This document shows positions 21,274-54,624 of a DNA stretch of 64,000 nt, piece by piece. This stretch comes from Pseudoxanthomonas suwonensis. GTDB taxonomy: Bacteria > Pseudomonadota > Gammaproteobacteria > Xanthomonadales > Xanthomonadaceae. How positions within the stretch are numbered: position 1 is the stretch's first letter; every line of letters starts with the position of its first letter. A model generated the notes under the pieces. That model was not told the DNA's origin, did no database searches, and saw only the letters and a program-made list of their open reading frames with translations. The stretch lies in assembly GCF_000972865.1 (NCBI RefSeq), contig NZ_CP011144.1, forward strand, positions 868,001-932,000, in the 5' to 3' direction. The translations under genes were made by a program, and so were the position numbers.

Positions 21274-21367
21274 TGTAGGAGCGGGCATCACCGCGACCCG
21301 ACGCCGTCGGCCCAGGCGACGCCCTCCTGATTGCAACGCCCGTGTCGCGGTGATGCCCGCTCCTACA
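21274..21367. repeat. REP doublet 1
   Basis: TGTAGGAGCGGGCATCACC on the left and its near complement ending GCTCCTACA on the right flank a conserved middle (GCCGTCGG..CAGGCGAC..GACGCCCG type). It lies inside the prfA-moaB composite. Confidence 0.85.
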
Positions 21368-27700: not shown

Positions 27701-27748
27701 GCCGATGCGGGCAACGCGTATCCTTGGCGCCCCTGCCCGGACGCCCCG

Positions 27749-28183
27749 ATGCCGCCCGCCCCGAACGCCCAGCCACCCGCCACTCACCGCGCCCCGCGCT
27801 GGCTGTGGCCGTTCATGCTCCTGCTGGGCAGCGCGACGATGGTCGTGGCGTGGAGCTCGCTGGCCCTGGCCACCGGCCGCCAGCACGGCTGGCTTGCGCT
27901 GCTGGCGGCGCTGGAGGCGGCCTGGATGCTGCGCCTGGGCGGCATGCCGGCCGGCTGGCCGCGGCGCCTGCTGGCCGCGGCCACCACCGTGGCCATGGCC
28001 GTGGCCGTGCAGTGGTTCGTGGTGGCCGGCCACATCGGCGGGCAGATGGGCATGGCGCCGTGGGAAGCGGCGCCGAAGATGGGTGCGTTCCACGTCTGGA
28101 TCCTGGCCCGGCTGGCCAACACCTGGTTCGATGTGCTCTGCCTGGCACTGGCCCCGCTGCTGGCGCTGCGGGCCGCGCGCTAG
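27749..28183 (+). CDS. Small membrane protein of unknown function
   Basis: Protein of 144 residues with a short Pro-rich N-terminus and four predicted membrane helices (about 18-38, 45-60, 70-92 and 115-140). I do not recognise a family. It starts at the ATG at 27749 (MPPAPNAQPPATH); an upstream in-frame ATG at 27662 would add 29 unlike residues. It diverges from the SufT-like gene and is followed by a REP doublet, so it is likely a single-gene unit. Confidence 0.7.
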   Translation: MPPAPNAQPPATHRAPRWLWPFMLLLGSATMVVAWSSLALATGRQHGWLALLAALEAAWMLRLGGMPAGWPRRLLAAATTVAMAVAVQWFVVAGHIGGQMGMAPWEAAPKMGAFHVWILARLANTWFDVLCLALAPLLALRAAR

Positions 28184-28218
28184 GTCGCCCCGCTGCGGGC
28201 GTGGCCTGGCCCCGCTTC

Positions 28219-28315
28219 TGTAGGAGCCGGGTTCAGCCGGCGACGCGACGCCTCGGCACAGGCGACACCTTCATGGTTCCGACGCCCGTGTCGCCCACTG
28301 AAGTGGGCTCCTACA
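28219..28315. repeat. REP doublet 2
   Basis: TGTAGGAGCCGGGTTCAGCC on the left; GTCGCCCACTGAAGTGGGC then TCCTACA on the right. The middle has CCTCGGCACAGGCGAC and GACGCCCGTG. The two heads carry different stem sequences, so the doublet was assembled from, or has diverged into, two REP variants. It is downstream of pntB. Confidence 0.9.
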
Positions 28316-30404: not shown

Positions 30405-30974
30405 GTGCTGGTGACCACGCCCCTCGATCCCGGCTGGGAGACGCAGGCGACGCCCGTCTGGGCGTCGCTGGACGCGTTCCTGGCCGAGGTCGGGCCGCGC
30501 GCGTTCCGCTTCGCCGAGGCCGGCCTGCGCCACCGCGACGACGCCCTGGACGCGGTCCAGGACGCGATGATGAAGATGCTGGCCTACCGCGAGCGCCCGG
30601 CCGGCGAGTGGACGCCGCTGTTCTGGAGCATCCTGCGCCGCCGGATCATCGACCTGCAGCGGCGCGCGCGCTTCCGCCTGCGCTGGCTGCGTCCAGCCGG
30701 CGACATGGTGGACGCCGACGACGCCAGCATCGACTGGGCCGACCCGGGCGTGGGTCCGGCCCAGGCCCACGAGCAGCGCGAAGCCTACGCGCGCCTGGTC
30801 CAGGCGCTGCGCGCGCTGCCGGCCCGGCAGCGTGAGGCGTTCACCCTGCGCGTGTTCGAGGAGCTGGACGTGGCCACCACCGCGCGGGCGATGGGCTGTT
30901 CGGAAGGCTCGGTGAAGACCCACCTGTCGCGTGCGCGGCAGGCACTGCAATCGCAACTGGAGGACGTCCGATGA
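30405..30974 (+). CDS. ECF-type RNA polymerase sigma factor
   Basis: Sigma-70 family protein of 189 residues. Region 2 covers about residues 25-80 (DDALDAVQDAMMKMLAYRER) and region 4 covers about 125-180 (LPARQREAFTLRVFEELDV and the helix-turn-helix CSEGSVKTHLSRARQAL). The start is GTG at 30405, with another GTG two codons later. The stop overlaps the next gene (ATGA). With the following two genes it forms a small ECF module inserted between pntAB and pntAA. The target regulon is unknown. Confidence 0.9.
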   Translation: MLVTTPLDPGWETQATPVWASLDAFLAEVGPRAFRFAEAGLRHRDDALDAVQDAMMKMLAYRERPAGEWTPLFWSILRRRIIDLQRRARFRLRWLRPAGDMVDADDASIDWADPGVGPAQAHEQREAYARLVQALRALPARQREAFTLRVFEELDVATTARAMGCSEGSVKTHLSRARQALQSQLEDVR

Positions 30975-31333
30975 CGACCGCACCCGACCCCGTCGACTTC
31001 GACCCCATCGACAGCCGGGCCCGGCAGCTGCACGCCGCCGCACTGGCCGATGTCTCCGCGCCGACCCTGGCGCGGCTGCGCCAGGCGCGCCGCGCGGCTG
31101 CGGACGCCGCGCCGCGCCGGCGGCCGCTGTTCGCGCCGTGGCTGGCTGGCGGCGCGGTGGCCGCGGCCGTGGCGCTGGCGGTGCTGCTGCATCCGGGCGT
31201 GCCGACGCCCGGCGCGCCCGACCAGCCGGCGCTGGCGGCCGCGACCGCCGACCCGGCCGAACCGCTGCAGGAGGATCCCGGTTTCTATCTGTGGCTGGAT
31301 TCGGCCGACGCCATCGCCCTCGCAATGGAGTAA
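30971..31333 (+). CDS. Small single-pass membrane protein, DUF3619-like, possible anti-sigma factor
   Basis: Protein of 120 residues: a cytoplasmic part of about 50 residues rich in Ala/Arg (APTLARLRQARRAAADA), one membrane helix (about 57-75), and a short periplasmic tail ending DPGFYLWLDSADAIALAME. The arrangement resembles DUF3619 proteins, which follow ECF sigma genes. Translation is coupled to the sigma gene by ATGA overlap. An anti-sigma role is inferred from position and topology; the classical zinc anti-sigma motif is absent. Confidence 0.75.
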   Translation: MTTAPDPVDFDPIDSRARQLHAAALADVSAPTLARLRQARRAAADAAPRRRPLFAPWLAGGAVAAAVALAVLLHPGVPTPGAPDQPALAAATADPAEPLQEDPGFYLWLDSADAIALAME

Positions 31334-31336
31334 CCC

Positions 31337-31786
31337 ATGAAGTCCCTCCGCATCGCCATCTGCCTGTTCGCGCTCGCGCTGCCCGCGCTGGCCACGGCGC
31401 AGGCCACGCCGCCCGCGAAGCAGGAAACGGCGCCGGCCACCGCCCCGCTGCCCGCCTGGGAACAGCTCAGCGCCGAGCAGCGCGAGACCTTGATCGCGCC
31501 GGTGCGCGAGCGCTGGAACGATTCGCCGCAGGAGCGCGGGCGCATGCTCGAGCACGCGCGCCGCTGGAAGTCGATGCCGCCGGAGGAGCGCGAGCGCGCC
31601 CGCCGCGGCATGCACCGCTTCGAGCAGATGAGCCCGGAGCAGAAGCAGCAGGCGCGCGCCATCTTCGAGCAGACCCGGGACATGACCCCGGAGCAGCGCC
31701 AGGCGTTCCGCGAGCGCTGGAAGAAGATGAGCCCCGAGCAGCGCCAGCAGTGGCTGCACGAGCATCCCGCACCGGCGCAGCCCTAG
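31337..31786 (+). CDS. DUF3106 secreted protein
   Basis: Protein of 149 residues with a clear signal peptide (MKSLRIAICLFALALPALATAQA in pattern, cleavage near residue 22) and a helical, charged domain made of repeated turns of the type MSPEQRQ, MPPEERER, MSPEQKQQ, MTPEQRQ. The repeats recall LTxxQ-type periplasmic proteins such as CpxP and Spy, but homology is not shown. It starts three bases after the membrane protein stop. A REP doublet starts ten bases after its stop. Confidence 0.85.
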   Translation: MKSLRIAICLFALALPALATAQATPPAKQETAPATAPLPAWEQLSAEQRETLIAPVRERWNDSPQERGRMLEHARRWKSMPPEERERARRGMHRFEQMSPEQKQQARAIFEQTRDMTPEQRQAFRERWKKMSPEQRQQWLHEHPAPAQP

Positions 31787-31795
31787 TCCGCCTTT

Positions 31796-31892
31796 TGTAG
31801 GAGCTGGCTTCAGCCGGCGACACGGGCGTCGAAAGCATGAAGGAGTCGCCTGTGCCGAGGCGTCGTGTCGCCGGCTGAAGCCAGCTCCTACA
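31796..31892. repeat. REP doublet 3
   Basis: TGTAGGAGCTGGCTTCAGCC and its inverted counterpart ending CAGCTCCTACA; middle GACACGGGCGTCG..GGAGTCGCCTGTGCCGAGGCG. It lies between the convergent DUF3106 and pntAA genes. Confidence 0.92.
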
Positions 31893-33241: not shown

Positions 33242-33338
33242 TGTAGGAGCCCACTTCAGTGGGCGACACGGGCGTCGGGACCACGAAGAAGTCGCCTGTG
33301 CCGAGGCGTCGTGTCGCCGGCTGAAGCCAGCTCCTACA
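33242..33338. repeat. REP doublet 4
   Basis: TGTAGGAGCCCACTTCAGTG on the left, GCCGGCTGAAGCCAGCTCC then TACA on the right. The left and right stems belong to different variants. It lies between pntAA (diverging) and the end of the first DUF1631 gene, 31 bases after that stop. Confidence 0.92.
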
Positions 33339-41172: not shown

Positions 41173-41853
41173 ATGCCTCGCTCCCCCCTCCCGATGCCCG
41201 CCACGCGCCCGATCCTCCTGCCCCTGCTGCTGGTCGCCACCCTGGGCGGCTGCTCGTTCGGCGGCGGCAGCAAGTCCACCCCCAGCGTGTACGAGGCGTT
41301 CGATTCCTCCAATACGTACTCGCGCAGCCTCGACCATTCGCCGCGGCAGGCCTGCGAGGCCGCGCGCCGCGCACTGCTGAGCCAGGGCTTCGTGGTCGGA
41401 CGCGCCGAAGCCGACGTGGTCGAGGCGCGCAAGTATTTCCAGCAGGACGAGAGCCACGAGCAGGTCGAATTCCGCGCGGTGTGCATGCCGCAGACGCGCG
41501 GCGACCAGCAGACTCTGGTCTTCGTCAACGCGGTGCAGGACCGCTACGCGCTGCGCCGGAGCAACACCAACGCCAGCCTCGGCGTGAGCGCGCTGGGCTC
41601 GGTGTCGCTGCCAATCGGCTCCAGCGAGGACTCGCTGGTCAAGGTCGGCAGTGCGACGCTGCAGGACCCGAACTTCTACAAGCGCTTCTTCGCCGTGCTC
41701 GACCGCTTCCTGCCCGAGCAGATCGAGCGCCCGGGCAAGCCTGCGGCATCGCCGCAGGCGCAGCCCACGCTGTTTCCGATGCTGCAGTACCCGCAGCCGG
41801 TGCCGGCCGAGTTGCCGCCGGAACAGGCGCCGCTGCCCACGCCGCCGTTGTAG
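41173..41853 (+). CDS. DUF2242-like lipoprotein
   Basis: Predicted lipoprotein of 226 residues: signal peptide with lipobox LGGC, then a domain with YEAFDSSNTYSRSLDHSP and CEAARRALLSQGFVV that fits DUF2242, and a Pro/Gln-rich tail. An in-frame ATG seven codons later (41194) is also possible. The stop codon TAG at 41851-41853 lies inside the head of a REP (TGTAGGAG), so the last residues (PTPPL) may have been set by the repeat. Function unknown. Confidence 0.85.
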   Translation: MPRSPLPMPATRPILLPLLLVATLGGCSFGGGSKSTPSVYEAFDSSNTYSRSLDHSPRQACEAARRALLSQGFVVGRAEADVVEARKYFQQDESHEQVEFRAVCMPQTRGDQQTLVFVNAVQDRYALRRSNTNASLGVSALGSVSLPIGSSEDSLVKVGSATLQDPNFYKRFFAVLDRFLPEQIERPGKPAASPQAQPTLFPMLQYPQPVPAELPPEQAPLPTPPL

Positions 41854-41946
41854 GAGACGTGCTCCGGCCGACGATCGATGCCGTCGGTGCAGGCGACTTC
41901 TGCATGATCCCGACGCCCGTGTCGCCCACTGAAGTGGGCTCCTACA
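41849..41946. repeat. REP doublet 5
   Basis: The left head TGTAGGAG is followed by a degenerate stem (ACGTGCTCCGGCCGACG); the right head GCCCACTGAAGTGGGCTCC then TACA is intact. The TAG in the left head is the stop codon of the DUF2242-like gene. Doublet 6 follows after 17 bases. Confidence 0.85.
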
Positions 41947-41963
41947 GGGACGGCCTGCGCTTT

Positions 41964-42060
41964 TGTAGGAGCTGGCTTCAGCCGGCGACACGCCACGCAG
42001 GCACAGGCGACTCCTTCATGGTCCCGACGCCCGTGTCGCCGGCTGAACCCGGCTCCTACA
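41964..42060. repeat. REP doublet 6
   Basis: TGTAGGAGCTGGCTTCAGCC on the left and GCCGGCTGAACCCGGCTCC then TACA on the right. On the minus strand the right head provides the TAG stop codon of pip at 42056-42058. Confidence 0.9.
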
Positions 42061-43000
42061 GCGCGAAGGCGTCGGTGGCGCGCACCAGGGCGTCGACGTT
42101 CTCCGGTTCGAACGCCGAATGCCCCGATGCCGGGCTGATTTCCAGCTTCGAGGCCGGCCAGGCCTTGTGCAGTTCCCAGGCGTTCTGCAGCGGGCAGACC
42201 ACGTCGTAGCGGCCGTGCACGATCACGCCGGGAATGCCGGCGATGCGGTGCACGTCGCGCAGCAGCTGGTCCTCGACCTCGAAGAAACCGCCGTTGACGA
42301 AGTAGTGGTTCTCGATCCGGGCGAAGGCCAGGGCGAAGTGCGGGTCCTGGTGGCTGTCGACGAAGTCGGCGTCCACGTGCAGGAAACTGGTCGCCCCCTC
42401 CCACACGCTCCAGGCCTTGGCCGCGGCCAGCCGGGTGGCCTCGTCCTCGCTGGTCAGGCGGCGGTGGAAGGCCGAGATCAGGTCGTGGCGCTCCACCGGC
42501 GGGATCGCCGCGAGGTAGTGCTCCCACGCATCCGGGAACAGGCGGTTGGCGCCTTCCTGGTAGAACCACTCCAGCTCCCAGCGGCGCAGCATGAAGATGC
42601 CGCGCAGGACCAGTTCGGCCACCCGCTGCGGATGGGTTTCGGCGTAGGCCAGCGCCAGGGTCGAGCCCCAGCTGCCGCCGAACACCTGCCAGCGCTCGAT
42701 GCCGAGCTTGCCGCGCAGCTTCTCGATGTCGGCGACCAGGTCCCAGGTGGTGTTGTCGACCAGGTCCGCGTGCGGAGTCGAGCGGCCGGCGCCGCGCTGG
42801 TCGAACAGCACGATCCGGTACTTCGCCGGATCGTGGAAGCGGCGCATCTTCGCGCTGCAGCCGCCGCCCGGGCCGCCGTGCAGCAGCACCACCGGCTTGC
42901 CGTCCGGGTTGCCGCACTGTTCGTAGTAGAGCTCGTGGCGGCCGTCGACCTTGAGGGTGCCGGTGTCGAACGGTTCGATCTCGGGATAGAGCGTGCGCAT
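42056..43000 (-). CDS. pip: Proline iminopeptidase
   Basis: Alpha/beta hydrolase that removes N-terminal proline from peptides, 314 residues (family S33). HGGPGGGCSAKMRRFHDP forms the oxyanion hole, GGSWGSTLALAYAETHP carries the nucleophile Ser, and the Asp (GRYDVVCP) and His (SGHSAFEPEN) complete the triad. The start MRTLYPEIEPFDTG at 43000 is the conserved one; a TAGAAT -10 lies about 29 bases upstream. The stop codon TAG belongs to REP doublet 6, and the C-terminus ends ATDAFAL. Confidence 0.95.
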   Translation of the reverse strand: MRTLYPEIEPFDTGTLKVDGRHELYYEQCGNPDGKPVVLLHGGPGGGCSAKMRRFHDPAKYRIVLFDQRGAGRSTPHADLVDNTTWDLVADIEKLRGKLGIERWQVFGGSWGSTLALAYAETHPQRVAELVLRGIFMLRRWELEWFYQEGANRLFPDAWEHYLAAIPPVERHDLISAFHRRLTSEDEATRLAAAKAWSVWEGATSFLHVDADFVDSHQDPHFALAFARIENHYFVNGGFFEVEDQLLRDVHRIAGIPGVIVHGRYDVVCPLQNAWELHKAWPASKLEISPASGHSAFEPENVDALVRATDAFAL

Positions 43001-43028
43001 GCCGGGGCTCGCTGCGGATGAACGGCCG

Positions 43029-43034
43029 ATTCTA
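43029..43034 (-). promoter_or_regulatory. -10 element TAGAAT for pip
   Basis: Minus-strand GCTAGAATCGG, five of six matches, ends 28 bases before the pip ATG. Same extended form as at 27695 and 55751. Confidence 0.5.
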
Positions 43035-43179
43035 GCGCAGGCGCCACGGACGGCCGGATGCGCGAATTTGCCGGCGCAGATCCGCCGGCACCGCCGCCTC
43101 GATGATCCGACCGCAGCCTGGCCCGCGGGAGGCACCTGCCCGGGAAAGCCACCGCACCGGTGCCGATGCCCAGATGGCT

Positions 43180-43257
43180 GGTGACACGGGCGTCGGGAAT
43201 ACGAGGGCGTCGCCTGGGCCGGCGGCGTCGTGTCGCCGGCTGAACCCGGCTCCTACA
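43180..43257. repeat. REP doublet 7, left head missing
   Basis: The middle (GACACGGGCGTCGGGAATACG, GGGCGTCGCCTGGGCC) and right head (GCCGGCTGAACCCGGCTCC then TACA) are present. The left TGTAGGAG head and stem are gone, replaced by CCAGATGGCTGG. It is a decayed copy, 22 bases before doublet 8. Both lie in the 371-base spacer between pip and prmC, which holds no gene. Confidence 0.8.
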
Positions 43258-43279
43258 ACAGCCGCAGCGCGACCGCTCC

Positions 43280-43376
43280 TGTAGGAGCCGACTTCAGTCG
43301 GCGACACGGGCGTCGGGATCCTGAGGGCGTCGCCTGTGCCGTCAACGCCGGATCGAAGACAAGCCCGGCTCCTACA
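43280..43376. repeat. REP doublet 8
   Basis: TGTAGGAGCCGACTTCAGTC on the left. The right head has lost its stem pairing (GATCGAAGACAAGCCCGGC) but keeps GGCTCCTACA. On the minus strand this end gives the TAG stop codon of prmC at 43372-43374. Confidence 0.85.
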
Positions 43377-44217
43377 GCGGCAGGCGGCCGAGGGTGACGC
43401 GGTCGCGCAGCTCGAGGTCGCGCACGGTTTCCACCTCGACCAGCCCCGCCTGCTCCAGCAGCGCGCGCACCGCCGGCCCCTGCTCCAGGCCGTGCTCGAG
43501 CAGCAGCCAGCCGCCGGGAACCAGGTGCCGCGGTGCGGCAAGGGCGATCGTGCGGATCGCGTCCAGCCCGTCGGCCCCTGAGGACAGCGCGCGCGGCGGC
43601 TCGTGGCGCAGGTCGCCCTCGGCCAGGTGCGGGTCGCCCTCGGCGATGTAGGGCGGGTTGCTGGCGATCAGGTCGAAACGGTCGTTGCCCAAGGCTTCGG
43701 TCCAGTCGCCACGGCGGAACCATACGTTGTCCAGCGCGTGCGCCTGCGCGTTGCGCACCGCCACCGCCAGGGTCGCCTTGCTCACGTCGGTGGCGACCAC
43801 CGCCGCCGCTGGCCGCTCGCTGGCCAGGGCCAGGGCGATGGCGCCGCTGCCGGTGCCCAGGTCGGCGATCCGCACCGGCTGGTCCGGCCCGACCCGCGCC
43901 AACGCCAGTTCCACCAGCAGTTCGGTCTCCGGGCGCGGGATCAGGGTGTCGGGCGTGACTTCCAGGTCCAGGGTCCAGAACCCGCGCCGCCCGGTCAGGT
44001 AGGCCACCGGCTCGCCGGCGGCGCGGCGCTCGACCAGGGCCCGGAAGCGGCCTGCGGCCCCGGCGTCGACCGGATCGGTGGCGTGGGCGAACAGCCAGGC
44101 GCGGTCCACGCCCAGCGCGTGGACCAGCAACGGCTCGGCATCGCCGCGCCCGATCCGGGCGGCGGCTTCGCGCAGCAGCGCGTCGAGGCGGGAATCGGAG
44201 TCGGCGGAGATGCTCAT
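43372..44217 (-). CDS. prmC: Release factor glutamine methyltransferase
   Basis: Methylates the Gln of the GGQ motif in RF1 and RF2 with S-adenosylmethionine. It has 281 residues. A small N-terminal helical domain precedes the Rossmann methyltransferase domain with [16 protein letters not shown] and the catalytic motif [13 protein letters not shown]. The start [14 protein letters not shown] at 44217 was chosen; an ATG 13 codons upstream is less conserved. The stop TAG is part of REP doublet 8. It diverges from ahpC and is not linked to its substrate gene prfA (19861). Confidence 0.95.
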
Positions 44218-44295
44218 GCGGGCTGGACGATGGACCAAACCAGTGGCGGGTGCCACTGCTGCGGCGCTGCACCAAAGATTGAACCTTGATTATCG

Positions 44296-44332
44296 ATAGT
44301 CAATGACTATCTATTTAATCCCTTTAATCGAT
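44296..44332 (+). promoter_or_regulatory. OxyR binding site upstream of ahpC
   Basis: ATAG-N7-CTAT-N7-ATCC-N7-CGAT matches the OxyR consensus (ATAG-N7-CTAT repeated at ten-base spacing) in 13 of 16 positions, with the first half perfect. It lies in an A+T-rich island and ends exactly at the -35, the place of an activator that contacts polymerase. oxyR itself is at 46995. Confidence 0.88.
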
Positions 44333-44361
44333 TTGATCTGTCTATCGTGACCGCCTAGGAT
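44333..44361 (+). promoter_or_regulatory. ahpC promoter
   Basis: -35 TTGATC (44333-44338), 17 bases, -10 TAGGAT (44356-44361). The transcript would start near 44368, about 30 bases before the ahpC ATG. The -35 abuts the OxyR site. Confidence 0.8.
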
Positions 44362-44399
44362 GGCGGCCTCGCTTCCACCACCCCAAGAGGACCTTCCCC

Positions 44400-44963
44400 A
44401 TGTCCCTGATCAACACCACGGTCAAGCCGTTCAAGGCCACCGCCTTCCAGAACGGCGAGTTCATCGAAGTCACCGACGCCAGCCTGAAGGGCAAGTGGTC
44501 GGTCGTGATCTTCATGCCGGCCGCCTTCACCTTCAACTGCCCGACCGAGGTCGAGGACGCCGCCAACAACTACGCCGAGTTCCAGCAGGCCGGTGCCGAG
44601 GTCTACATCGTGACCACCGACACCCACTTCTCGCACAAGGTGTGGCACGAGACCTCCCCGGCGGTCGGCAAGGCCCAGTTCCCGCTGGTCGGCGACCCGA
44701 CCCATCAGCTGACCCGCGCCTTCGGCGTGCACATCGACGAAGAGGGCCTGGCCCTGCGCGGCACCTTCATCATCAACCCGGAAGGCGTGGTCAAGACCCT
44801 GGAAATCCACGACAACGCCATTGCCCGCGACGTCAGCGAGACCCTGCGCAAGCTCAAGGCCGCCCAGTTCGTCGCCGCCAACCCGGGCCAGGTGTGCCCG
44901 GCCAAGTGGAAGGAAGGCGCCCAGACCATCGCCCCGTCGCTGGACCTGGTCGGCAAGATCTGA
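44400..44963 (+). CDS. ahpC: Alkyl hydroperoxide reductase subunit C (peroxiredoxin)
   Basis: Typical two-cysteine peroxiredoxin of 187 residues that reduces hydrogen peroxide and organic peroxides. The peroxidatic Cys47 is in AAFTFNCPTEVEDAA and the resolving Cys166 in GQVCPAKWKEG, as in E. coli. AhpF, its reductase, is next on the same strand. A strong AGAGGA ribosome site precedes the ATG. Expression is probably high and peroxide induced through the OxyR site upstream. Confidence 0.98.
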   Translation: MSLINTTVKPFKATAFQNGEFIEVTDASLKGKWSVVIFMPAAFTFNCPTEVEDAANNYAEFQQAGAEVYIVTTDTHFSHKVWHETSPAVGKAQFPLVGDPTHQLTRAFGVHIDEEGLALRGTFIINPEGVVKTLEIHDNAIARDVSETLRKLKAAQFVAANPGQVCPAKWKEGAQTIAPSLDLVGKI

Positions 44964-45000
44964 GTTCCGCCCCGCCCTCCCGGCCCGCCGGGAAGGACGG

Positions 45001-45030
45001 CACTCCCATCCCCGGACGGGGATGGGAGTG
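45001..45030 (+). terminator. Strong hairpin after ahpC
   Basis: CACTCCCATCCCC, GGAC, GGGGATGGGAGTG: a perfect 13-pair stem 38 bases after the ahpC stop. There is no U tract, so it may be a partial terminator or an mRNA-stabilising hairpin that raises ahpC over ahpF. Confidence 0.55.
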
Positions 45031-45110
45031 GCTGGAAGCCATCGCTCCCACGCAGCCGCCGCGCCATGCGGCACGCCACGCAGGCCGCGTCGGCTTCCAT
45101 CCACTCCCAT
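45022..45110. repeat. 19-base inverted repeat sharing an arm with the ahpC hairpin
   Basis: ATGGGAGTGGCTGGAAGCC (45022-45040) pairs with GGCTTCCATCCACTCCCAT (45092-45110) with one mismatch. The left arm overlaps the right side of the hairpin at 45001-45030, so the two structures exclude each other. The 369-base ahpC-ahpF spacer holds no gene. Confidence 0.7.
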
Positions 45111-45201
45111 GCAGCACGGTGCCCTGCCCGCAGGGCGCAGCGGGACCGGCTTGCCGGCCGTTGCGGCAGCGACGCCATCGAGAAACGCCTGAACAGCCGC
45201 C

Positions 45202-45284
45202 GTCGTTCCCGCGAAGGCGGGAACCCAGTGACTTCAAGCCATCGAAAGTCAAAGGCGCTGGGTTCCGGCCTTCGCGGGAACGAC
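45202..45284. repeat. Intergenic inverted repeat, CCGTC..CCAGTGACT family, copy 3
   Basis: GTCGTTCCCGCGAAGGCGGG continuing to AACCCAG (45202-45228) pairs with 45258-45284 with a single mismatch, 27 bases per arm. Each arm also folds on itself. It lies 49 bases before ahpF. Confidence 0.88.
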
Positions 45285-45332
45285 TGGGAAAGTGCTGATT
45301 TCCGCTAGTACCCTCCCCCAGGAGTTCCCGCC

Positions 45333-46922
45333 ATGTTGGACGACAGCCTCAAGACCCAGCTCCAGGCCTACCTGGAACGCCTGACCCGCCCGGTGCACCT
45401 GGTCGCCTCGCTCGACGACGGCGACGCCTCGGCGCAGATGCTCGCCCTGCTGCAGGACATCGAGGCCCTGTCGGCGAAGATCACCCTGGAAGCGCGCCGC
45501 GACGATGCCGAGCGCAAGCCGTCGTTCGCCGTGACCAGCCCCGGCCACGACATCTCGCTGCGTTTCGCCGGCCTGCCGATGGGCCACGAGTTCACCTCGC
45601 TGGTGCTGGCCCTGCTGCAGGCCGGCGGGCATCCGTCCAAGGCCGCAGCCGAGGTGATCGAGCAGGTGAAGTCGCTCGACGGCGAGTTCGTGTTCGAGAG
45701 CTACTTCTCGCTGTCCTGCCAGAACTGCCCGGATGTGGTCCAGGCGCTGAACCTGATGGCGGTGCTCAACCCGAAGGTCAGGCACGTGGCCATCGACGGC
45801 GCGCTGTTCCAGGACGAGGTCGAGGCACGCCAGGTGATGTCGGTGCCGACCGTGTTCCTCAACGGCCGGATGTTCGGCGCCGGGCGCATGGGCCTGGAGG
45901 AGATCGTGGCCAGGCTCGACAGCGGCGCGGAGAAGCGCGAGGCGGAGAAGATCGCCAGGAAGGCCATGTTCGACGTGCTGGTGGTCGGCGGCGGCCCGGC
46001 CGGCGCCGCGGCGGCGGTCTACGCCGCGCGCAAGGGCATCCGCACCGGCGTGGCGGCCGAGCGCTTCGGCGGCCAGGTGCTGGACACGATGGCGATCGAG
46101 AACTTCATCTCGGTGCCGCACACCGAGGGCCCGAAACTGGCCGCGGCGCTGGAGCAGCACGTGCGCGAATACGACGTGGACGTGATGAACCTGCAGCGCG
46201 CCACCGCGCTGGTGCCGGCCGGCGCCGACGGCCTGGTCGAAATCAGGCTGGCCAATGGCGCCTCGCTGAAGTCGAAGACCGTGGTCCTGTCCACCGGCGC
46301 GCGCTGGCGGCAGATGGGCGTGCCCGGCGAGAACGAATACCGCAACAAGGGCGTGGCCTACTGCCCGCACTGCGACGGCCCGCTGTTCAAGGGCAAGCGG
46401 GTGGCGGTGATCGGCGGCGGCAACTCCGGCGTGGAGGCGGCGATCGACCTGGCCGGCATCGTCGCCCACGTCACCCTGGTCGAGTTCGATGCGAAGCTGC
46501 GCGCCGACGAGGTCCTGCAGCGCAAGCTGCGCAGCCTGCCGAACGTGCGCATCGTCACCAGCGCGCAGACCACCGAAGTGCTGGGCGACGGGCACAAGGT
46601 CACCGGCCTGGTCTACACCGACCGCGTCGGCCACGACGCGCACCGGCTCGAGCTGGAAGGCGTGTTCGTGCAGATCGGCCTGCTGCCCAACACCGAATGG
46701 CTCAAGGGCACCGTGGAACTGAGCCCGCGCGGCGAGATCGTGGTCGACGACCGCGGCCAGACCAGCGTGCCGGGCGTGTTCGCCGCCGGCGACTGCACCA
46801 CCGTGCCGTACAAGCAGATCGTGATCGCGATGGGCGAGGGCTCCAAGGCCGCGCTGGCCGCGTTCGACCACCTGATCCGCGCTTCGGCGCCGGAAGCCGA
46901 GCCGGTCGCGGAAGCCGCCTGA
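45333..46922 (+). CDS. ahpF: Alkyl hydroperoxide reductase subunit F
   Basis: Flavoprotein disulphide reductase that recharges AhpC with NADH, 529 residues. The N-terminal double thioredoxin-fold domain has the redox pair CQNC (Cys129, Cys132). The thioredoxin-reductase part has the FAD motif [19 protein letters not shown], the redox pair CPHC (Cys344, Cys347), the NADH motif [17 protein letters not shown] and the C-terminal [19 protein letters not shown]. Start ATG 45333 has an AGGAG ribosome site. It is separated from ahpC by repeats, so relative output may be set by those structures. Confidence 0.98.
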
Positions 46923-46994
46923 AAGCGCTAGGGTGGACCCGCGTCCGCCTTTCGGCGTTCCGGGAGGCGGCGCGATCCGGCGGGAGGGAATGCG

Positions 46995-47978
46995 ATGAAC
47001 CTGCGCGACCTCAAGTACCTGGTGGCCCTGGCCGACCACAAGCATTTCGGCCGCGCCGCCGCGGCCTGCTATGTCAGCCAGCCCACGCTCTCCACCCAGA
47101 TCCGCAAGCTGGAGGACGAGCTGGGGGTGCCGCTGGTCGAACGCGCGCCGCGCAGGGTGATGCTGACCCCCGCCGGCCGCGAGGCCGCCGAGCGCGCGCG
47201 CCGGATCGTGGCCGAGGTCGAGCAGATGAAGGAGGCCGCGCGCCGCAGCCAGGATCCGGAGGCCGGCACGGTGCGGCTGGGCATCTTCCCCACGCTCGCT
47301 CCCTATCTGCTGCCGCACGTGGTGCCGCGGGTGCGCGCCCGCTTCCCGCAGCTGGAACTGCTGCTGGTGGAGGAGAAGAGCGACGAACTGCTTACCCGCC
47401 TGCGCGACGGCAAGCTCGACGCGGCGGTACTGGCCCTGCCCGTCCACGACGAGCAGTTGCACGCCGAGTTCCTGTTCGAGGAGCCGTTCGTGCTGGCGGT
47501 CCCGGAGAACCATCCGCTGGCGCGGCGCGCCACGCTGACCCTGGACGAGCTGTCCGAACAGCGCCTGCTGCTGCTGGAGGACGGCCACTGCCTGCGCGAG
47601 CAGGCGCTGGACGTGTGCCGCCTGTCCGGCGCGCACGAGAAGACCGAGTTCCGCGCCACCAGCCTGGAGACGCTGCGGCAGATGGTCGCCGCCAACGTCG
47701 GCGTGACCCTGCTGCCGACCCTGGCAGTGAAGCCGCCGGTGGCGCGCTCGGACAACATCCACCTGCTGCGCTTTGCCGACTCGCACCCCAGCCGCAGCAT
47801 CGCCATGGTCTGGCGGCGCAGCTCGGCCATGGCCGGCTTCCTGGCGCGGCTGGCGCAGGTGTTCCGCGACCTGCCGCCGGGGCTGCTCTCGCCGGTCGCC
47901 TCGCCCGACGAGGGCAGGCCCGGCGCCCCGGTGCAGCCGGCCGCCACACCGCCACCGCCGCGCGGCGACTGGGCCTGA
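46995..47978 (+). CDS. oxyR: Hydrogen peroxide-responsive regulator OxyR
   Basis: LysR-family regulator of 327 residues. The N-terminal winged helix has FGRAAAACYVSQPTLSTQIR. The sensor cysteines are at residues 199 and 208 (GHCLREQALDVC), the same numbers as in E. coli OxyR, so disulphide switching is expected. The C-terminus is extended by about 20 Pro/Ala-rich residues. It follows ahpF by 72 bases in the same direction and probably controls ahpC through the site at 44296. Confidence 0.96.
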   Translation: MNLRDLKYLVALADHKHFGRAAAACYVSQPTLSTQIRKLEDELGVPLVERAPRRVMLTPAGREAAERARRIVAEVEQMKEAARRSQDPEAGTVRLGIFPTLAPYLLPHVVPRVRARFPQLELLLVEEKSDELLTRLRDGKLDAAVLALPVHDEQLHAEFLFEEPFVLAVPENHPLARRATLTLDELSEQRLLLLEDGHCLREQALDVCRLSGAHEKTEFRATSLETLRQMVAANVGVTLLPTLAVKPPVARSDNIHLLRFADSHPSRSIAMVWRRSSAMAGFLARLAQVFRDLPPGLLSPVASPDEGRPGAPVQPAATPPPPRGDWA

Positions 47979-48120
47979 ACGCGGCGGCCCGATGCGGTTG
48001 AACCCCCGCCCGTTACGGGCTACGGTGTTCCCACAACCAGTCGACCCGGGGCGGACGCGGAAACGCGCCGCCTTTTTCTTCATGCGCGCCCGGCGCGCAC
48101 CCACCCGTGAGAGGAGCACC

Positions 48121-48552
48121 ATGCCCACCCAACCCGCCAGCGGCCTGCCGCCGTCCCTGATCATCTCCAGCCGCGACCTGGCCCGGCTCGAAGCCCTGCT
48201 CGACTCCCCGGTGCTGAGCCGCCACCCGGCGGCGCTCGCGCTGATGGACGAACTCAACCGCGCCGAGGTGCTGCCACCCGAGCGCATCCCCGCCGACGTG
48301 GTGACCATGCATTCGCAGGTCGAGTGCGAGGACATCGCCAGCGGCGAGAACCACGTGCTGACCCTGGTGTATCCGAACGAGGCCGACGTCGAGCGCGGAC
48401 GCGTCTCGGTCCTGGCGCCGGTCGGCAGCGCCCTGCTCGGCCTGTCGGTCGGCCAGTCGATCGACTGGGAGGTCCCTGGCGGCCGCACCCTGAAGCTGCG
48501 GGTGAAGTCGGTCCGCTACCAGCCCGAAGCGGCGGGCGACCTGCACCGCTGA
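48121..48552 (+). CDS. rnk: Rnk-like nucleoside diphosphate kinase regulator
   Basis: Protein of 143 residues. A short helical N-terminal part (IISSRDLARLEALLD) is followed by a GreA/GreB-type C-terminal domain (VECEDIASGENHVLTLVYP and APVGSALLGLSVGQSIDWEVP). In E. coli Rnk binds RNA polymerase and affects Ndk and alginate-type regulation; the role here is inferred from family. The ATG at 48121 has a GAGAGGAG ribosome site. A GC hairpin (48558-48580) and two REP doublets follow. Confidence 0.9.
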   Translation: MPTQPASGLPPSLIISSRDLARLEALLDSPVLSRHPAALALMDELNRAEVLPPERIPADVVTMHSQVECEDIASGENHVLTLVYPNEADVERGRVSVLAPVGSALLGLSVGQSIDWEVPGGRTLKLRVKSVRYQPEAAGDLHR

Positions 48553-48557
48553 GCGCA

Positions 48558-48580
48558 GGCCGGCGCAGTGCGCGCCGGCC
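48558..48580 (+). terminator. Terminator-like hairpin after rnk
   Basis: GGCCGGCGC, AGTGC, GCGCCGGCC is a perfect nine-pair stem six bases after the rnk stop. No U tract follows, so efficiency is uncertain. Confidence 0.5.
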
Positions 48581-48594
48581 GCGATCCTTGCGGT

Positions 48595-48691
48595 TGTAGG
48601 AGCGGACTTGAGTCCGCGACACCGACGACGTCGGCACAGGCGACTCCCCCATGGTTCCGACGCCCGGGTCGCGGTCATGCCCGCTCCTACA
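48595..48691. repeat. REP doublet 9
   Basis: TGTAGGAGCGGACTTGAGTC on the left and GTCGCGGTCATGCCCGCTCC then TACA on the right, with ACCGACGACGTCGGCACAGG in the middle. It is nearly identical to doublet 10, 30 bases away, which indicates a recent local duplication. Confidence 0.92.
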
Positions 48692-48721
48692 CACACAAGA
48701 AAGCCGTCGCGCTGTTGCTCT

Positions 48722-48819
48722 TGTAGGAGCGGACTTCAGTCCGCGACACCGACGCCGTCGGCACAGGCGACGCCCCCAATGGTTCCGACGCCCGGGTCGC
48801 GGTCATGCCCGCTCCTACA
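48722..48819. repeat. REP doublet 10
   Basis: Same structure and almost the same sequence as doublet 9 (differences in TTCAG/TTGAG, GCCGTC/GACGTC and the middle). On the minus strand its right head gives the TAG stop codon of pgk at 48815-48817. Confidence 0.92.
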
Positions 48820-49990
48820 TGCCGCGTGCTTCCAGCGCCGCCACCGCCGGCAGGGTCTTGCCCTCGAGGAACTCGAGGAACGCACCGCCGCCGGTGGAGA
48901 TGTAACTGACCTGGTCGGCGATGCCGTACTTGTCCACCGCCGCCAGCGTGTCGCCGCCGCCGGCGATGGAGAACGCCTTCGAGCCGGCGATCGCGCGGGC
49001 CAGGGTCTCGGTGCCCTTGCCGAACGCGTCGAACTCGAACACGCCGACCGGACCGTTCCACACCACCGTGCCGGCGGCCGCGATCAGCTCGGCATACTGC
49101 GCCGCGGTGCGCGGACCGATGTCCAGGACCAGGTCGTCGGCGCCGACCGCGTCGACCGGCTTCACCTCGGCCGGGGAATCGGCCTTGAACTCCCTGGCCA
49201 CCACCACGTCCACCGGCAGCGGGATCTGCGCGCCGCGCACCTTCGCATCGGCGTCGATCTCGCGCGCGGTGTCGAGCAGATCGGCCTCGTACAGCGACTT
49301 GCCCACGCCGTGCCCGGCCGCGGCGATGAAGGTGTTGGCGATGCCGCCGCCGACGATCAGCTGGTCGACCTTGCCGACCAGGCTGGTGAGCAGTTCCAGC
49401 TTGGTCGAGACCTTGCTTCCGGCCACGATCGCCAGCAGCGGGCGCGCCGGGTTGGCCAGCGCCTTGTCCAGCGCGTCGAGCTCGGCCATCAGCAGCGGGC
49501 CGCCGGCGGCGACCGGAGCGAAACGGATCACGCCGTGGGTCGAAGCCTGGGCGCGGTGCGCGGTGCCGAACGCGTCCATCACGAACACGTCGCACAGCGC
49601 CGCGTACTTCCGCGAGAGCGCCTCGTCGTCCTTGCCCTCGCCGAGGTTCATGCGGCAGTTCTCGAGCAGCACGATCCGGCCTGGCTGCACCTCCACGCCG
49701 TCCACCCAGTCCTTGACCAGCGGCACCTCAACGCCCAGCAGTTCGGACAGGCGCGCGGCCACCGGCGCCAGCGAATCGGCCTCGCTCCACACGCCTTCCT
49801 TCGGCCGGCCCAGATGCGAGGTGACCATCACCGCCGCGCCCTTCTCCAGGGCCAGCTTCAGCGTCGGCACCGAGGCGGTGATGCGCTGTTCGGAGGTGAT
49901 TTTTCCGCCTTCGATCGGGACGTTGAGGTCCTGCCGGATCAGCACGCGCTTGCCGGCAAGGTCGAGGTCGGTCATGCGGACGATGGACAT
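48815..49990 (-). CDS. pgk: Phosphoglycerate kinase
   Basis: Glycolytic kinase that makes ATP from 1,3-bisphosphoglycerate, 391 residues. N-terminal substrate-binding motif [13 protein letters not shown], the signature SHLGRPKEG and the nucleotide-binding segments GGGIANTFI and [18 protein letters not shown] are all present. The protein ends VAALEARGM, and the TAG stop is inside REP doublet 10. It is downstream of gap and the DUF2339/DUF3999 pair on the same strand. A start at Met6 (49975) is also possible. Confidence 0.97.
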
Positions 49991-51520: not shown

Positions 51521-54363
51521 GTCCGTCCTTCCTCCAGTGGGTCGTCGTGCGTGCGCGGCGGCGCCGGCGCCAGGTAGCCGACGATGGTGCACAACACGCC
51601 ATAGGCGATGAACGAGACGATACCGAGTACGCCGCCCAGGTGCTGGCGGTCGACCAGCAGCAGCTTGGCCAGGACCACGCCCATCAGCACCGCGCCGGCC
51701 AGCCACAGCCCGCGCCGGCCGCGGCGCGAGCCGACGATCCAGCCGATCACGCCGAGCACGCTCCAGACCACGGTCAGGCTGGTCTGGGCCAGGCTGGTGG
51801 AGAGCAGCTCCGGGTTCCAGTCGATGCCACCCCAGTGATGCACGCTGCGCAGCGTGCTCGCGCTCAGCAGCAGGAAGCCGCCCAGCGCGACCACGCCGGT
51901 GCGCAACTGCGACAGCGTCGCGGGCGAGTGCGCCGACCACAGCCAGACGGCGGCGAGCGCCAGCGCGATCAGCTGCGCCAGTTCGGCCGGATTGAGCAGC
52001 GGCAACCACGGCAGCGGCGCCGGCGACGCCGCCAGCGCCAATGCCAGCAGCCAGCCGGTCGCGATCAATGCGAAGACCACGCCCAGCAGCGGCGTGCGCA
52101 GGCCGGCGACGGCGCCGGCGTCGCGCGGGAACGCGAGCCACGGCCAGCGCCGCAGCGCCAGCGCGGCCAGCGCCAGCCACGGCAACGCCAGCAGGGCCAC
52201 GCGCCAGCCCTGCGCGAGGCCGGCGTCGGTCGCCAGCCAGGAGGCCCACAGCGACAGCGACAGCGGCCACAGCAGCCACCAGGCGAACTGCGCCAGGCCG
52301 GCCGTGCCGCCGTCGTCGTCGTCGCGCAGGCACCACAGGCTGCGCAGGCCCAGCACCGCGAACAGCGCCCACGCGGCCGCCCCCCAGCCGCCGCCGAACG
52401 GATGCGCGTGCACGGCGTCCTGCCACAGCGCCAGCGGCATCGCCAACGCAAACGCGGCGAACACCGTTGCCGCCAGTGCGCGCGCCGGACGCCAGCGGTG
52501 CACCTCTGCCGCGATCCAGCCGCTGGCCGCGGCGAAGGCGAGCAGCGCATCCGGACGTGCATCGGCGGCGACGAAGCGGTCGATCTCGTGAACGCCGTTG
52601 CCGCTCCACCAGGCCAGGCCCCACAGGTAGAACGCCAGCGCGCTGCCAGTCATGCCATGCGCGCGTGCGGCCCAGGCGCTGGCCAGGCCGGCCAGCGCGA
52701 TCAGCAGCGCACCCATCGCGGTCGGGTTGAACAGCGGACGCGCATCGCCGCCGGCGTGGTCGAGCAGCCCGGCCAGCAGCGCGCACGCCGCCAGCAGCTG
52801 CAGCGCGGCGCCGGCGAACTGCGGCAACCCGCGGCCCTGGCGCAGGCCCAGCCAGAACAGGCCGGCACCCTCCAGCGCGAACGCGCTGGCAGTGGCGCGC
52901 GCCGACAGCGCCAGCGGCACAGCCAGGGTGGCGAAGCCCACGGCCAGGATCGCGTGCGATTGGCCCAGCACCGCGTAGCCGGCGCGGCGCAGCAACGCCC
53001 AGGCCAGTCCCGCATACAGCACGCCCAGGCCCAGCGCGCACAGCGCCAGCGGCAGGCGGTCGCCGTCGGCCAGCACGCCCTCCATCAGCCCCGCCTGCAA
53101 TGCGAACGCGACCAGCGGCGTGCCGAACACCAGGCAGCCGTCGATGAAGTCGCGCCGTCCTTCCGGCTGGCGCCGCGCGAACAGGATCGGCACCAGCAGG
53201 TAGAAGGCGAAGAACAACGCCAGGAACGGCTGGGTGCTCGCATACTGCTCCGGCCGGTAGTCGTATACGCCCCACAGCGTGCCGATGCCGAAGGTGAACA
53301 CGAAACCGAGCAGGTTGAGGATGCGCCAGGCGCGGAACCAGGCGATCGCCACGATCGCCGCGTTGAGCAGCGCGTAGTACGAGAACAGCGCCACGTGGTT
53401 GCCGCTGCCGGTCGACAGCCACAGCGGGGCGAGGAAGCCGGCCAGCAGCGCGAACACCGCCAGCGCCTTGGCGTCCTGCAGCACCGCCAGCAGGCCCATC
53501 CCGGCCACCAGCAGCCCGCTCAGCGCGAACGCCGCGCCGGCGGGCAGCACGCCGTACAGCTTGAACGCCGCATACACGGTCAGCAGCAGCACGCCGATCG
53601 CGCCACCCTGCAGGCTCAGCGCGAACACCCGGTTGCTCTGGCGCCGGCGCCAGGCGAAGGCGAGCGCGGCCAGCGCGACGGCGGCCACGCCGGCCAGGCG
53701 CAGTTCCAGCGGCAGCGAGAACAGGCCCTGGTCGCTGGCGTACTTGAGCAGCGCCGCGACGCCGGCCAGCAGCACCAGCATGCCGATCTTGACCGGCACG
53801 TTGCCGACGGTGAACCAGCGCTTGACCGTGCGCAGCAGGGCGGCGCCCGTGTCGGGCGTACCGGGGGCATCCTCGCGCCACGGCCGTGCGTTTGGCGGCG
53901 GCGGCAGCGGCGGCGGCGTGGAAGCGGCCGCACCGGTCGCGGCGCCGCCCGCAGGCGGGGCGGACCCGGTATCGGACGGCTGACCGGCGGAGGATGCCGC
54001 GGGCTGGTGCACTGCGGGTTCGTGCATTGCAGGAGCGTGCACCGAGGAGGCAGGCGACGATGCGGCGGAGACGGGTCGTGCCGGCGGTTGCGTCCGCATC
54101 AACTCGGACAGCGTCGGCGCCGCATCGTCCTGCGCCGGGCCGACGCCGGCCGCGGGGGCATCGGCCGGAGGCCGGGCCGCCTCGTCCCGGGCACGTGCCG
54201 GCGCCGGGCGTGCGGTGGCAAGGCGGAGTTCGGCGAGTGCGCCCTCCAGCGCCGCCACCCGCCCCTTCAGCGAAGACAGCGACACCAGAGCGACGACCAG
54301 CAGCACCGGCATCGCCAGCAGCGCCAGCCCGACCAGCACCAGGAACCCCACCAGTCCGTCCAT
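51517..54363 (-). CDS. DUF2339 family polytopic membrane protein
   Basis: Very hydrophobic protein of 948 residues. One N-terminal membrane helix (MDGLVGFLVLVGLALLAMPV) is followed by a short coiled segment, a Pro/Ala-rich linker of about 120 residues, and from about residue 165 to the end some 25 or more predicted membrane helices. PVKIGMLVLLAGVAALLKYA is the typical entry to the DUF2339 core. Start ATG at 54363; the open frame upstream has no membrane pattern. It is coupled to the DUF3999 gene by ATGA overlap, so the two probably form one complex. No known function. Confidence 0.87.
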   Translation of the reverse strand: MDGLVGFLVLVGLALLAMPVLLVVALVSLSSLKGRVAALEGALAELRLATARPAPARARDEAARPPADAPAAGVGPAQDDAAPTLSELMRTQPPARPVSAASSPASSVHAPAMHEPAVHQPAASSAGQPSDTGSAPPAGGAATGAAASTPPPLPPPPNARPWREDAPGTPDTGAALLRTVKRWFTVGNVPVKIGMLVLLAGVAALLKYASDQGLFSLPLELRLAGVAAVALAALAFAWRRRQSNRVFALSLQGGAIGVLLLTVYAAFKLYGVLPAGAAFALSGLLVAGMGLLAVLQDAKALAVFALLAGFLAPLWLSTGSGNHVALFSYYALLNAAIVAIAWFRAWRILNLLGFVFTFGIGTLWGVYDYRPEQYASTQPFLALFFAFYLLVPILFARRQPEGRRDFIDGCLVFGTPLVAFALQAGLMEGVLADGDRLPLALCALGLGVLYAGLAWALLRRAGYAVLGQSHAILAVGFATLAVPLALSARATASAFALEGAGLFWLGLRQGRGLPQFAGAALQLLAACALLAGLLDHAGGDARPLFNPTAMGALLIALAGLASAWAARAHGMTGSALAFYLWGLAWWSGNGVHEIDRFVAADARPDALLAFAAASGWIAAEVHRWRPARALAATVFAAFALAMPLALWQDAVHAHPFGGGWGAAAWALFAVLGLRSLWCLRDDDDGGTAGLAQFAWWLLWPLSLSLWASWLATDAGLAQGWRVALLALPWLALAALALRRWPWLAFPRDAGAVAGLRTPLLGVVFALIATGWLLALALAASPAPLPWLPLLNPAELAQLIALALAAVWLWSAHSPATLSQLRTGVVALGGFLLLSASTLRSVHHWGGIDWNPELLSTSLAQTSLTVVWSVLGVIGWIVGSRRGRRGLWLAGAVLMGVVLAKLLLVDRQHLGGVLGIVSFIAYGVLCTIVGYLAPAPPRTHDDPLEEGRT

Positions 54364-54526
54364 CCCGCCCCCCGTCCGTCCGTTTCCGCAGCGGTCGCCG
54401 GTCGTGCCCGGCAACGGCTTGGCGTCGGCAGCGTCGGCGATGCATGGCCGGGTTGCAAGGTGTCGGCGGCCGCGTGCGGCGTGCGGCACTCGCAGTTCGG
54501 CGCGGGGTCCCGGCGCCCGGGGTCGT

Positions 54527-54624
54527 TGTAGGAGCCGACTTCAGTCGGCGACCCGACGCCGTCGGCACAGGCGACGCCCCCGCAACCCCGACGCCCGTGT
54601 CGCCGACTGAAGTCGGCTCCTACA
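54527..54624. repeat. REP doublet 11
   Basis: TGTAGGAGCCGACTTCAGTC on the left and GCCGACTGAAGTCGGCTCC then TACA on the right, with matched stems on both sides. It lies between the gap terminator and DUF2339. The remaining 163 bases of this spacer (54364-54526) show nothing I can identify. Confidence 0.93.

Follow-up and report, generated by a model that had tools for sequence, protein, structure and literature searches.

When the last three letters of a gene belong to a mobile repeat, did the repeat bring the stop codon with it, or did it land on one that was already there? The question is raised by a stretch of 64,000 nucleotides (nt) of Pseudoxanthomonas suwonensis DNA (positions 868001-932000 of the 3.89-Mb single-contig chromosome, hereafter the window), where four genes, those for a DUF2242 lipoprotein, pip, prmC and pgk, take their in-frame stop from the TAG of a short repeated sequence, the TGTAGGAG head. 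The name pip is that of an earlier reader of the window; Pfam assigns the product to the alpha/beta hydrolases. A preliminary description had reported the four overlaps, and all four are indeed in frame at the positions it gave (Table 1). Gene calling with a home-made codon model, seeded from eight window genes, returned the same four head-stopped genes in the window and no others. Two explanations had been proposed: that the repeat inserts at pre-existing TAG stops, GTAG being the transposase target, or that it lands near a 3′ end and its own TAG is then used. The second fits better, whereas the first lacks support as the main cause and may apply to a minority of genes. It is probable, although well short of certain, that the repeat supplies the stop at the gene end, that only arrivals in the TAG frame survive, and that the repeat brought the stop more often than it landed on one.

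The heads are part of a large repeat family. The window holds 21 copies of TGTAGGAG against 0.31 expected from shuffled sequence, and the whole genome holds 1285 exact copies against 175 for a reversed-pattern control. As 16 congeners carry between 15 and 398 heads each, the family has expanded in P. suwonensis. GTAG forms the 5′ end of an imperfect palindrome, as in repetitive extragenic palindromes (REPs), and GA sits between GTAG and the palindrome, giving the GTAGGAGC heads of the Pseudomonas/Xanthomonas group. Copy number is high and location mostly extragenic, with only seven of 482 heads lying inside genes, all antisense. Inverted head pairs number 123 in 800 kb, of which 116 span 94-98 bp; GTAG-type REPs are thus joined here in pairs of uniform length, the arrangement known as REPINs (REP doublets forming hairpins). 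A T precedes GTAG in 313 of 329 heads, so that the element itself starts with TGTAG and the GTAG is element sequence. All five REPINs tested fold better than their shuffles (z -2.0 to -11.2, the weakest being matched by 8 of 200 shuffles), and the UAG is located within the hairpin stem.

The position of heads relative to gene 3′ ends was counted in three 400-kb stretches, covering 1.2 of 3.89 Mb (31% of the genome) and 482 heads. A gene 3′ end lies on the 5′ side of 148 of these heads. In 36 of the 148 (36 of all 482) the head's TAG is the stop, an offset of -5, and not one of the 148 facing heads in this 1.2 Mb occupies any other offset from -8 to +6. Of the remainder, 46 fall between +7 and +42 (a density of 1.28 heads per nt), another 34 between +43 and +150, and 32 lie further away. 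Against that density, 36 heads at a single offset have a Poisson probability of about 5e-39, which bears out the earlier suspicion that the overlap exceeds random placement. The window's own share, four of 21, is not clearly unusual beside 36 of 482 (binomial P = 0.067). A separate sample of 30 heads on the plus strand, taken from the initial 264 kb, gave three more stop cases, which lie outside the count of 36 in 482. If density were flat, the emptiness of offsets 0-6 past the stop would have P = 1e-4; should the usual flanked joint described below be able to form at +4 to +6 alone, P becomes 0.02.

The single offset has a simple counterpart in reading frame. No called gene reads through any of the 482 heads of this 1.2 Mb in the head's own sense. 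In the other two frames, a head runs for a median of 81 and about 165 nt before meeting a stop (246 heads), which on a protein amounts to a median tail of about 27 or 55 residues. Because arrivals in those frames would add such long tails and none is seen, only the TAG frame appears to remain.

Stop codons of orthologs at the four window genes bear on which came first. At pgk, 16 congeners end in TGA (13), TAA (two) or TAG (one, which carries a REP-like hairpin), and at DUF2242 the 13 loci divide into ten TGA, all REP-free, and three REP heads. The hairpin rule picks up 83 of 451 TGA stops as well, which makes a REP call soft wherever a relative lacks the GAG head; with this proviso, the 73 readable pip loci comprise 60 TGA, six TAA, two TAG and five REP-like ends, two of the last (L110 and L081) being possible chance hairpins. 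The 12 readable Pseudoxanthomonas pip loci give seven TGA, two TAG and three REP. At prmC, 80 loci (L051-L130) show 34 TGA, 37 TAG without a REP, two TAA and seven REP-like stops, among which L060 may be a chance hairpin. To judge from these REP-free relatives, the stops of pgk and DUF2242 look supplied by the repeat, that of pip was probably supplied, and that of prmC could be read either way. A pre-existing TAG is possible for some genes, prmC and coaE included. PrmC is a modifying enzyme of release factors, and TAG is recognised by one of these.

A wider comparison, with one genome per species, drew on the first two 400-kb regions, in which 16 of 25 REP-stop genes could be paired with orthologs from four congeners (38 pairs). 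Orthology to the stretch from the REP-poor congener G014 was thin (60 reciprocal matches for 331 genes), and was supplemented by single-gene searches and by stretches of G001, G002 and G004. A REP-stop is shared by the relative in 11 of the 38 pairs. The 27 REP-free relatives end in TGA (17), TAG (nine, counting as REP-free the gene B260 of G004, whose end resembles a decayed REP) and TAA (one). C-terminal length is equal in only eight of the 27 REP-stop pairs as against 346 of 441 pairs of TGA genes. Taking the closest REP-free relative of each gene, the length is kept in 3 of 15 REP-stop genes, compared with 154 of 198 TGA genes (P = 1e-5) and 18 of 23 plain TAG genes. The prmC gene stands outside this 15-gene comparison, both its relatives being counted as REP, that in G001 by the soft hairpin rule alone. 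By these lengths, most stops have shifted by a few codons, which a pre-existing TAG does not predict. Under the test set out in the preliminary description, relatives ending in TAG at the same codon would favour target choice, whereas quite different codons, together with an overlap no more frequent than chance, would refute the idea. Most relatives do neither, ending a few codons away in TGA, and overlap is far more frequent than chance would give.

Gene ends with a REP-stop recur across the genus. Five further examples were identified by Pfam as CoaE, RibBA, an FAD-linked oxidase, a calcineurin-like phosphoesterase and a PilT/U-type ATPase, the last three of which we take to be glcD, lpxH and pilU, respectively. 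REP-free copies of pilU and glcD end in TGA or TAA in 13 of 15 and eight of nine congeners (scored by eye). Scored by eye, REP-stops occur in 4 of 17 genomes at coaE, 4 of 16 at lpxH, 3 of 16 at ribBA, 7 of 16 at glcD and 1 of 16 at pilU; pgk has them in 2 of 17. On a tree built from six genes (branch support 33-100), their distribution over these six genes takes 19 parsimony changes, each a gain or a loss. The type of head differs between species, with GAG, AGC and GTG at glcD and GAG, AGC and GCG at ribBA, from which either recurrent arrival at these ends or replacement of one REP type by another may be deduced. Across 80 loci of the family, a hairpin of at least seven pairs directly follows 32 of 101 GTAG stops, compared with 5 of 88 other TAG and 129 of 962 TGA stops. 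Half of the 32 (16) belong to one Stenotrophomonas gene, a LysR-type regulator by Pfam (L111:11930-12814, minus strand, with orthologs among L067-L129), whose stop is occupied by at least four REP types across strains. In L087, L092 and L122, the stem at the end of this gene is the same but follows a TAA rather than a TAG.

These observations suggest the following course of events. As small non-autonomous elements, GTAG-type REPINs would belong to a RAYT (REP-associated tyrosine transposase), which presumably moved them, and the two inverted heads of each begin with (T)GTAG. Where a REPIN comes to lie at a gene 3′ end, the TAG of its outward head would become the new stop, mostly where relatives have TGA. 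Arrivals in the other frames would add a long protein tail and have presumably been removed by selection. The joint may arise when the element simply inserts into the last codons, or when, at a later stage, the spacer is lost or replaced.

A candidate for the enzyme is encoded on the same chromosome. A Y1_Tnp gene at 2795338-2795892 (1363-1917 of locus L031; E 3.3e-11) has ten exact heads within its 3.3-kb locus and itself stops at a head's TAG; from its position, it is likely to be the cognate RAYT of the heads. Its ortholog in G004 ends in TAG before a REP-like palindrome, while those in G002 (CTGTAG) and G014 (GTCTAG) end without a clear one. Around a second Y1_Tnp gene (L032), the 3.3-kb locus contains no exact head.

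Several findings weigh against the supply of stops by simple arrival followed by selection, and the first group concerns how the joint is made. Genes of unchanged or almost unchanged length form a higher peak than would be expected from evenly spread arrivals followed by selection. Some proteins, those of ribBA, lpxH and others, are 2 to 9 residues longer than their REP-free relatives, an extension that could not result from simple insertion ahead of the native stop. Isolated heads have C-T at -4/-3 before TGTAG in 46 of 175 cases, a preference that fits the cleavage of TnpA_REP at C|T, with GTAG acting as guide, described in the available excerpt of PMC8266576. Stop heads carry this flank in only 1 of 36 cases (P = 8e-4) and so differ from ordinary insertion joints, and for most of them direct insertion beside the usual C-T flank can be rejected. 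Finally, the spacer between the DUF2242 and pip genes is exactly one REPIN, stop to stop, in three Pseudoxanthomonas species (L057, L055 and L062; 81, 84 and 97 nt). In the window the two genes converge, and the spacer (41851-42058) consists of two tandem REPINs with 202 nt between the stops. At ten REP-free loci it measures 28-96 nt or is replaced by an overlap of 14. At this locus at least, spacers that consist of REPIN from one stop to the other suggest that the native sequence was lost or replaced.

One rival explanation is that, after arrival, a deletion driven by the RAYT or otherwise replaces the native spacer and stop and fuses the coding region to the head, leaving REPINs that end stop to stop. 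The stop-to-stop spacers beside the differing REP-free ones, the missing C-T flank and the vacancy between 0 and 6 nt past the stop all speak for directed re-joining of this kind. The same vacancy also counts against it, as trimming should leave some heads in this interval behind native stops, yet it is empty; a gradual trimming ratchet is rejected as the sole cause on this ground. Moreover, only one stop-to-stop pair occurs in 1.2 Mb of P. suwonensis. As the general explanation, re-joining is considered unlikely. A broader conjecture, and a doubtful one, is that gene ends are a true joining site of REPs, the RAYT repeatedly replacing stop and spacer with a stop-to-stop REPIN and its own gene ending likewise. 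Should it hold, a selfish repeat would in this family have come to provide both the translation stop and the 3′ hairpin for some 100 genes in each genome (an estimate from the 36 seen in 31% of the genome), raising TAG usage.

The second group of contrary findings concerns the REP-free relatives and bears on target choice, according to which the transposase prefers a pre-existing GTAG and the TAG stop after a G was there first. Pure supply predicts that relatives end in TAG at the background rate. REP-free relatives nevertheless end in TAG for 6 of 15 REP-stop genes (five without the decayed REP), as against 5 of 198 TGA genes, a frequency near the 11 of 23 for plain TAG genes; by pairs, the figures are 9 of 27 (one a likely decayed REP) and 16 of 441 for TGA genes. 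Conversely, relatives of REP-free TAG genes of P. suwonensis carry REP-stops in 9 of 49 pairs, compared with 6 of 525 for TGA/TAA genes. The many REP-free TAG stops of prmC, alongside its few REP-like ones, fit the same pattern, as does the Stenotrophomonas LysR-type gene, whose last codon, TGG, is unchanged in 31 of 31 orthologs whatever REP type follows; among the strains listed, the types are swapped at this stop, with no clean empty sites seen. Against these points, pgk, DUF2242, glcD, pilU and, outside Pseudoxanthomonas, pip end in TGA or TAA in almost every REP-free relative, and C-terminal length is usually shifted. Were the target retained as in IS200/IS605-like elements, the empty site would contain the GTAG tetranucleotide; at the window genes other than prmC, REP-free orthologs have mostly TGA. 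Among the eight TAG relatives without the decayed REP, three read GTAG, five CTAG and none TGTAG, and any such TAG could also be the scar of a lost REP. In addition, GTAG is element sequence and, in the excerpted account of TnpA_REP (PMC8266576), a guide, the cleavage site being CT. The proposal that GTAG is the transposase target thus lacks support as the main cause. To judge by the codons of relatives, some REPs may have landed on TAG stops, or TAG may have remained after REP decay, or both, but target choice as the general rule is quite unlikely.

A third explanation is that these copies are kept by positive selection for a hairpin tight at the stop, which would protect or terminate the mRNA or damp translation. 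It is very improbable, for although REPINs fold well with the UAG in their stem and translation in E. coli is reported to drop when a REP lies no more than 15 nt from the stop (as cited in the excerpt of PMC12306157), a hairpin 0-6 nt after the native stop should serve equally and none is seen, nor do REPINs have a terminator-like U run, the five matches to a hairpin plus T run in 41700-49000 all lying outside them. Supply of the stop by the arriving repeat, with survival of the TAG frame alone, accounts best for the material as a whole, and the joint would have been made by insertion or by replacement of the spacer.

Table 1. Genes, REPINs and single heads of the window (window coordinates; Pfam E-values refer to the open reading frame (ORF) given in brackets, where one is given).
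Feature	Position	Strand	Details
REPIN	21274-21367		gives no called gene's stop
REPIN	28219-28315		gives no called gene's stop
REPIN	31796-31892		begins 9 nt past DUF3106 gene (31337-31786); gives no stop
REPIN	33242-33338		gives no called gene's stop
DUF2242 lipoprotein gene (ORF from 41101)	41194-41853	+	stop TAG 41851-41853 in head; PF10001 E 2.5e-50 (ORF from 41101)
REPIN 1, two inverted TGTAGGAG heads	41849-41946	+	left head = DUF2242 stop; fold -41.3 kcal/mol, z -1.99
REPIN 2	41964-42060	-	right head = pip stop; fold -67.3 kcal/mol, z -7.51
pip-like alpha/beta hydrolase gene	42056-43000	-	stop TAG 42056-42058 in head; PF00561 E 3.4e-34 (ORF 42056-43135)
Lone head	43250-43257	-	no exact partner head at REPIN distance on 3′ side
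REPIN 3	43280-43376	-	right head = prmC stop; fold -47.1 kcal/mol, z -3.59
prmC	43372-44217	-	stop TAG 43372-43374 in head; PrmC_N PF17827 E 1.3e-16 (ORF 43372-44256)
REPIN 4	48595-48691	not assigned	adjoins REPIN 5; gives no stop
REPIN 5	48722-48819	-	right head = pgk stop; fold -58.8 kcal/mol, z -4.39
pgk	48815-49990	-	stop TAG 48815-48817 in head; PF00162 E 1.9e-141
REPIN	54527-54624		gives no called gene's stop; fold -69.9 kcal/mol, z -11.18

Three long ORFs of the window also end on heads in the TAG frame (27705-28223, 30931-31800 and 51547-54531, all on the plus strand). They were rejected as genes, having no Pfam match at 1e-3 and not being called, and the last runs opposite to a called gene on the other strand. 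Another long inverted repeat, of different sequence (CGTTCCCGCGAAGGC...GCCTTCGCGGGAACG), occupies 45202-45290 of the window, between two genes that are presumably ahpC-like and ahpF-like. With regard to stop usage at large, 46 of the 331 genes called in 720001-1120000 of the chromosome end in TAG, 13 of them at REP heads, compared with 26 of 330 in 620001-1020000 of G014.

At about a quarter of the 3′ ends that its heads face, a mobile repeat sets the stop codon, and it does so recurrently in related species. Among the genes concerned, pgk, coaE and lpxH are essential in many bacteria. Stop codons are among the few places where the arrival of a REP leaves an alignable trace, and for this reason REP target choice becomes testable. 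If the E. coli results carry over, translational effects would be predicted for a hairpin placed directly at these stops.

Literature searches brought up no study recognised, from the portions available, as testing target choice against stop supply. The use of REPs as stops is itself already on record: the excerpt of Di Nocera 2013 (PMC3733652) states that REP termini often supply the TAG stop codon, there termed 'opal', to flanking ORFs, a remark to which numbers are now attached. The REPs described in that excerpt resemble those of P. suwonensis in having GTAG at one end of the palindrome, in often forming opposite pairs and in lying mostly downstream of genes, whereas the target/supply test, the distribution of offsets and frames and the stop-to-stop spacer are found only here, as far as its contents extend. 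The REPINs of Bertels and Rainey 2011 (PMC3116915) likewise consist of two inverted REPs forming one unit of uniform length, although they belong to another host and sequence family, and the term 'stop codon' has no occurrence in the available part of that paper. Closest in sequence are the Pseudomonas/Xanthomonas REP-RAYT systems of Nunvar 2010 (PMC2817692), with the same GTAG followed by GA before the palindrome. According to the excerpt of that study, REPs in many cases adjoin or directly follow the rayt stop codon, whereas here the rayt stop is the head's own TAG. It is well supported that the P. suwonensis gene ends are an instance of this published pattern, to which evidence from frame, offset, orthologs and spacers is now added.

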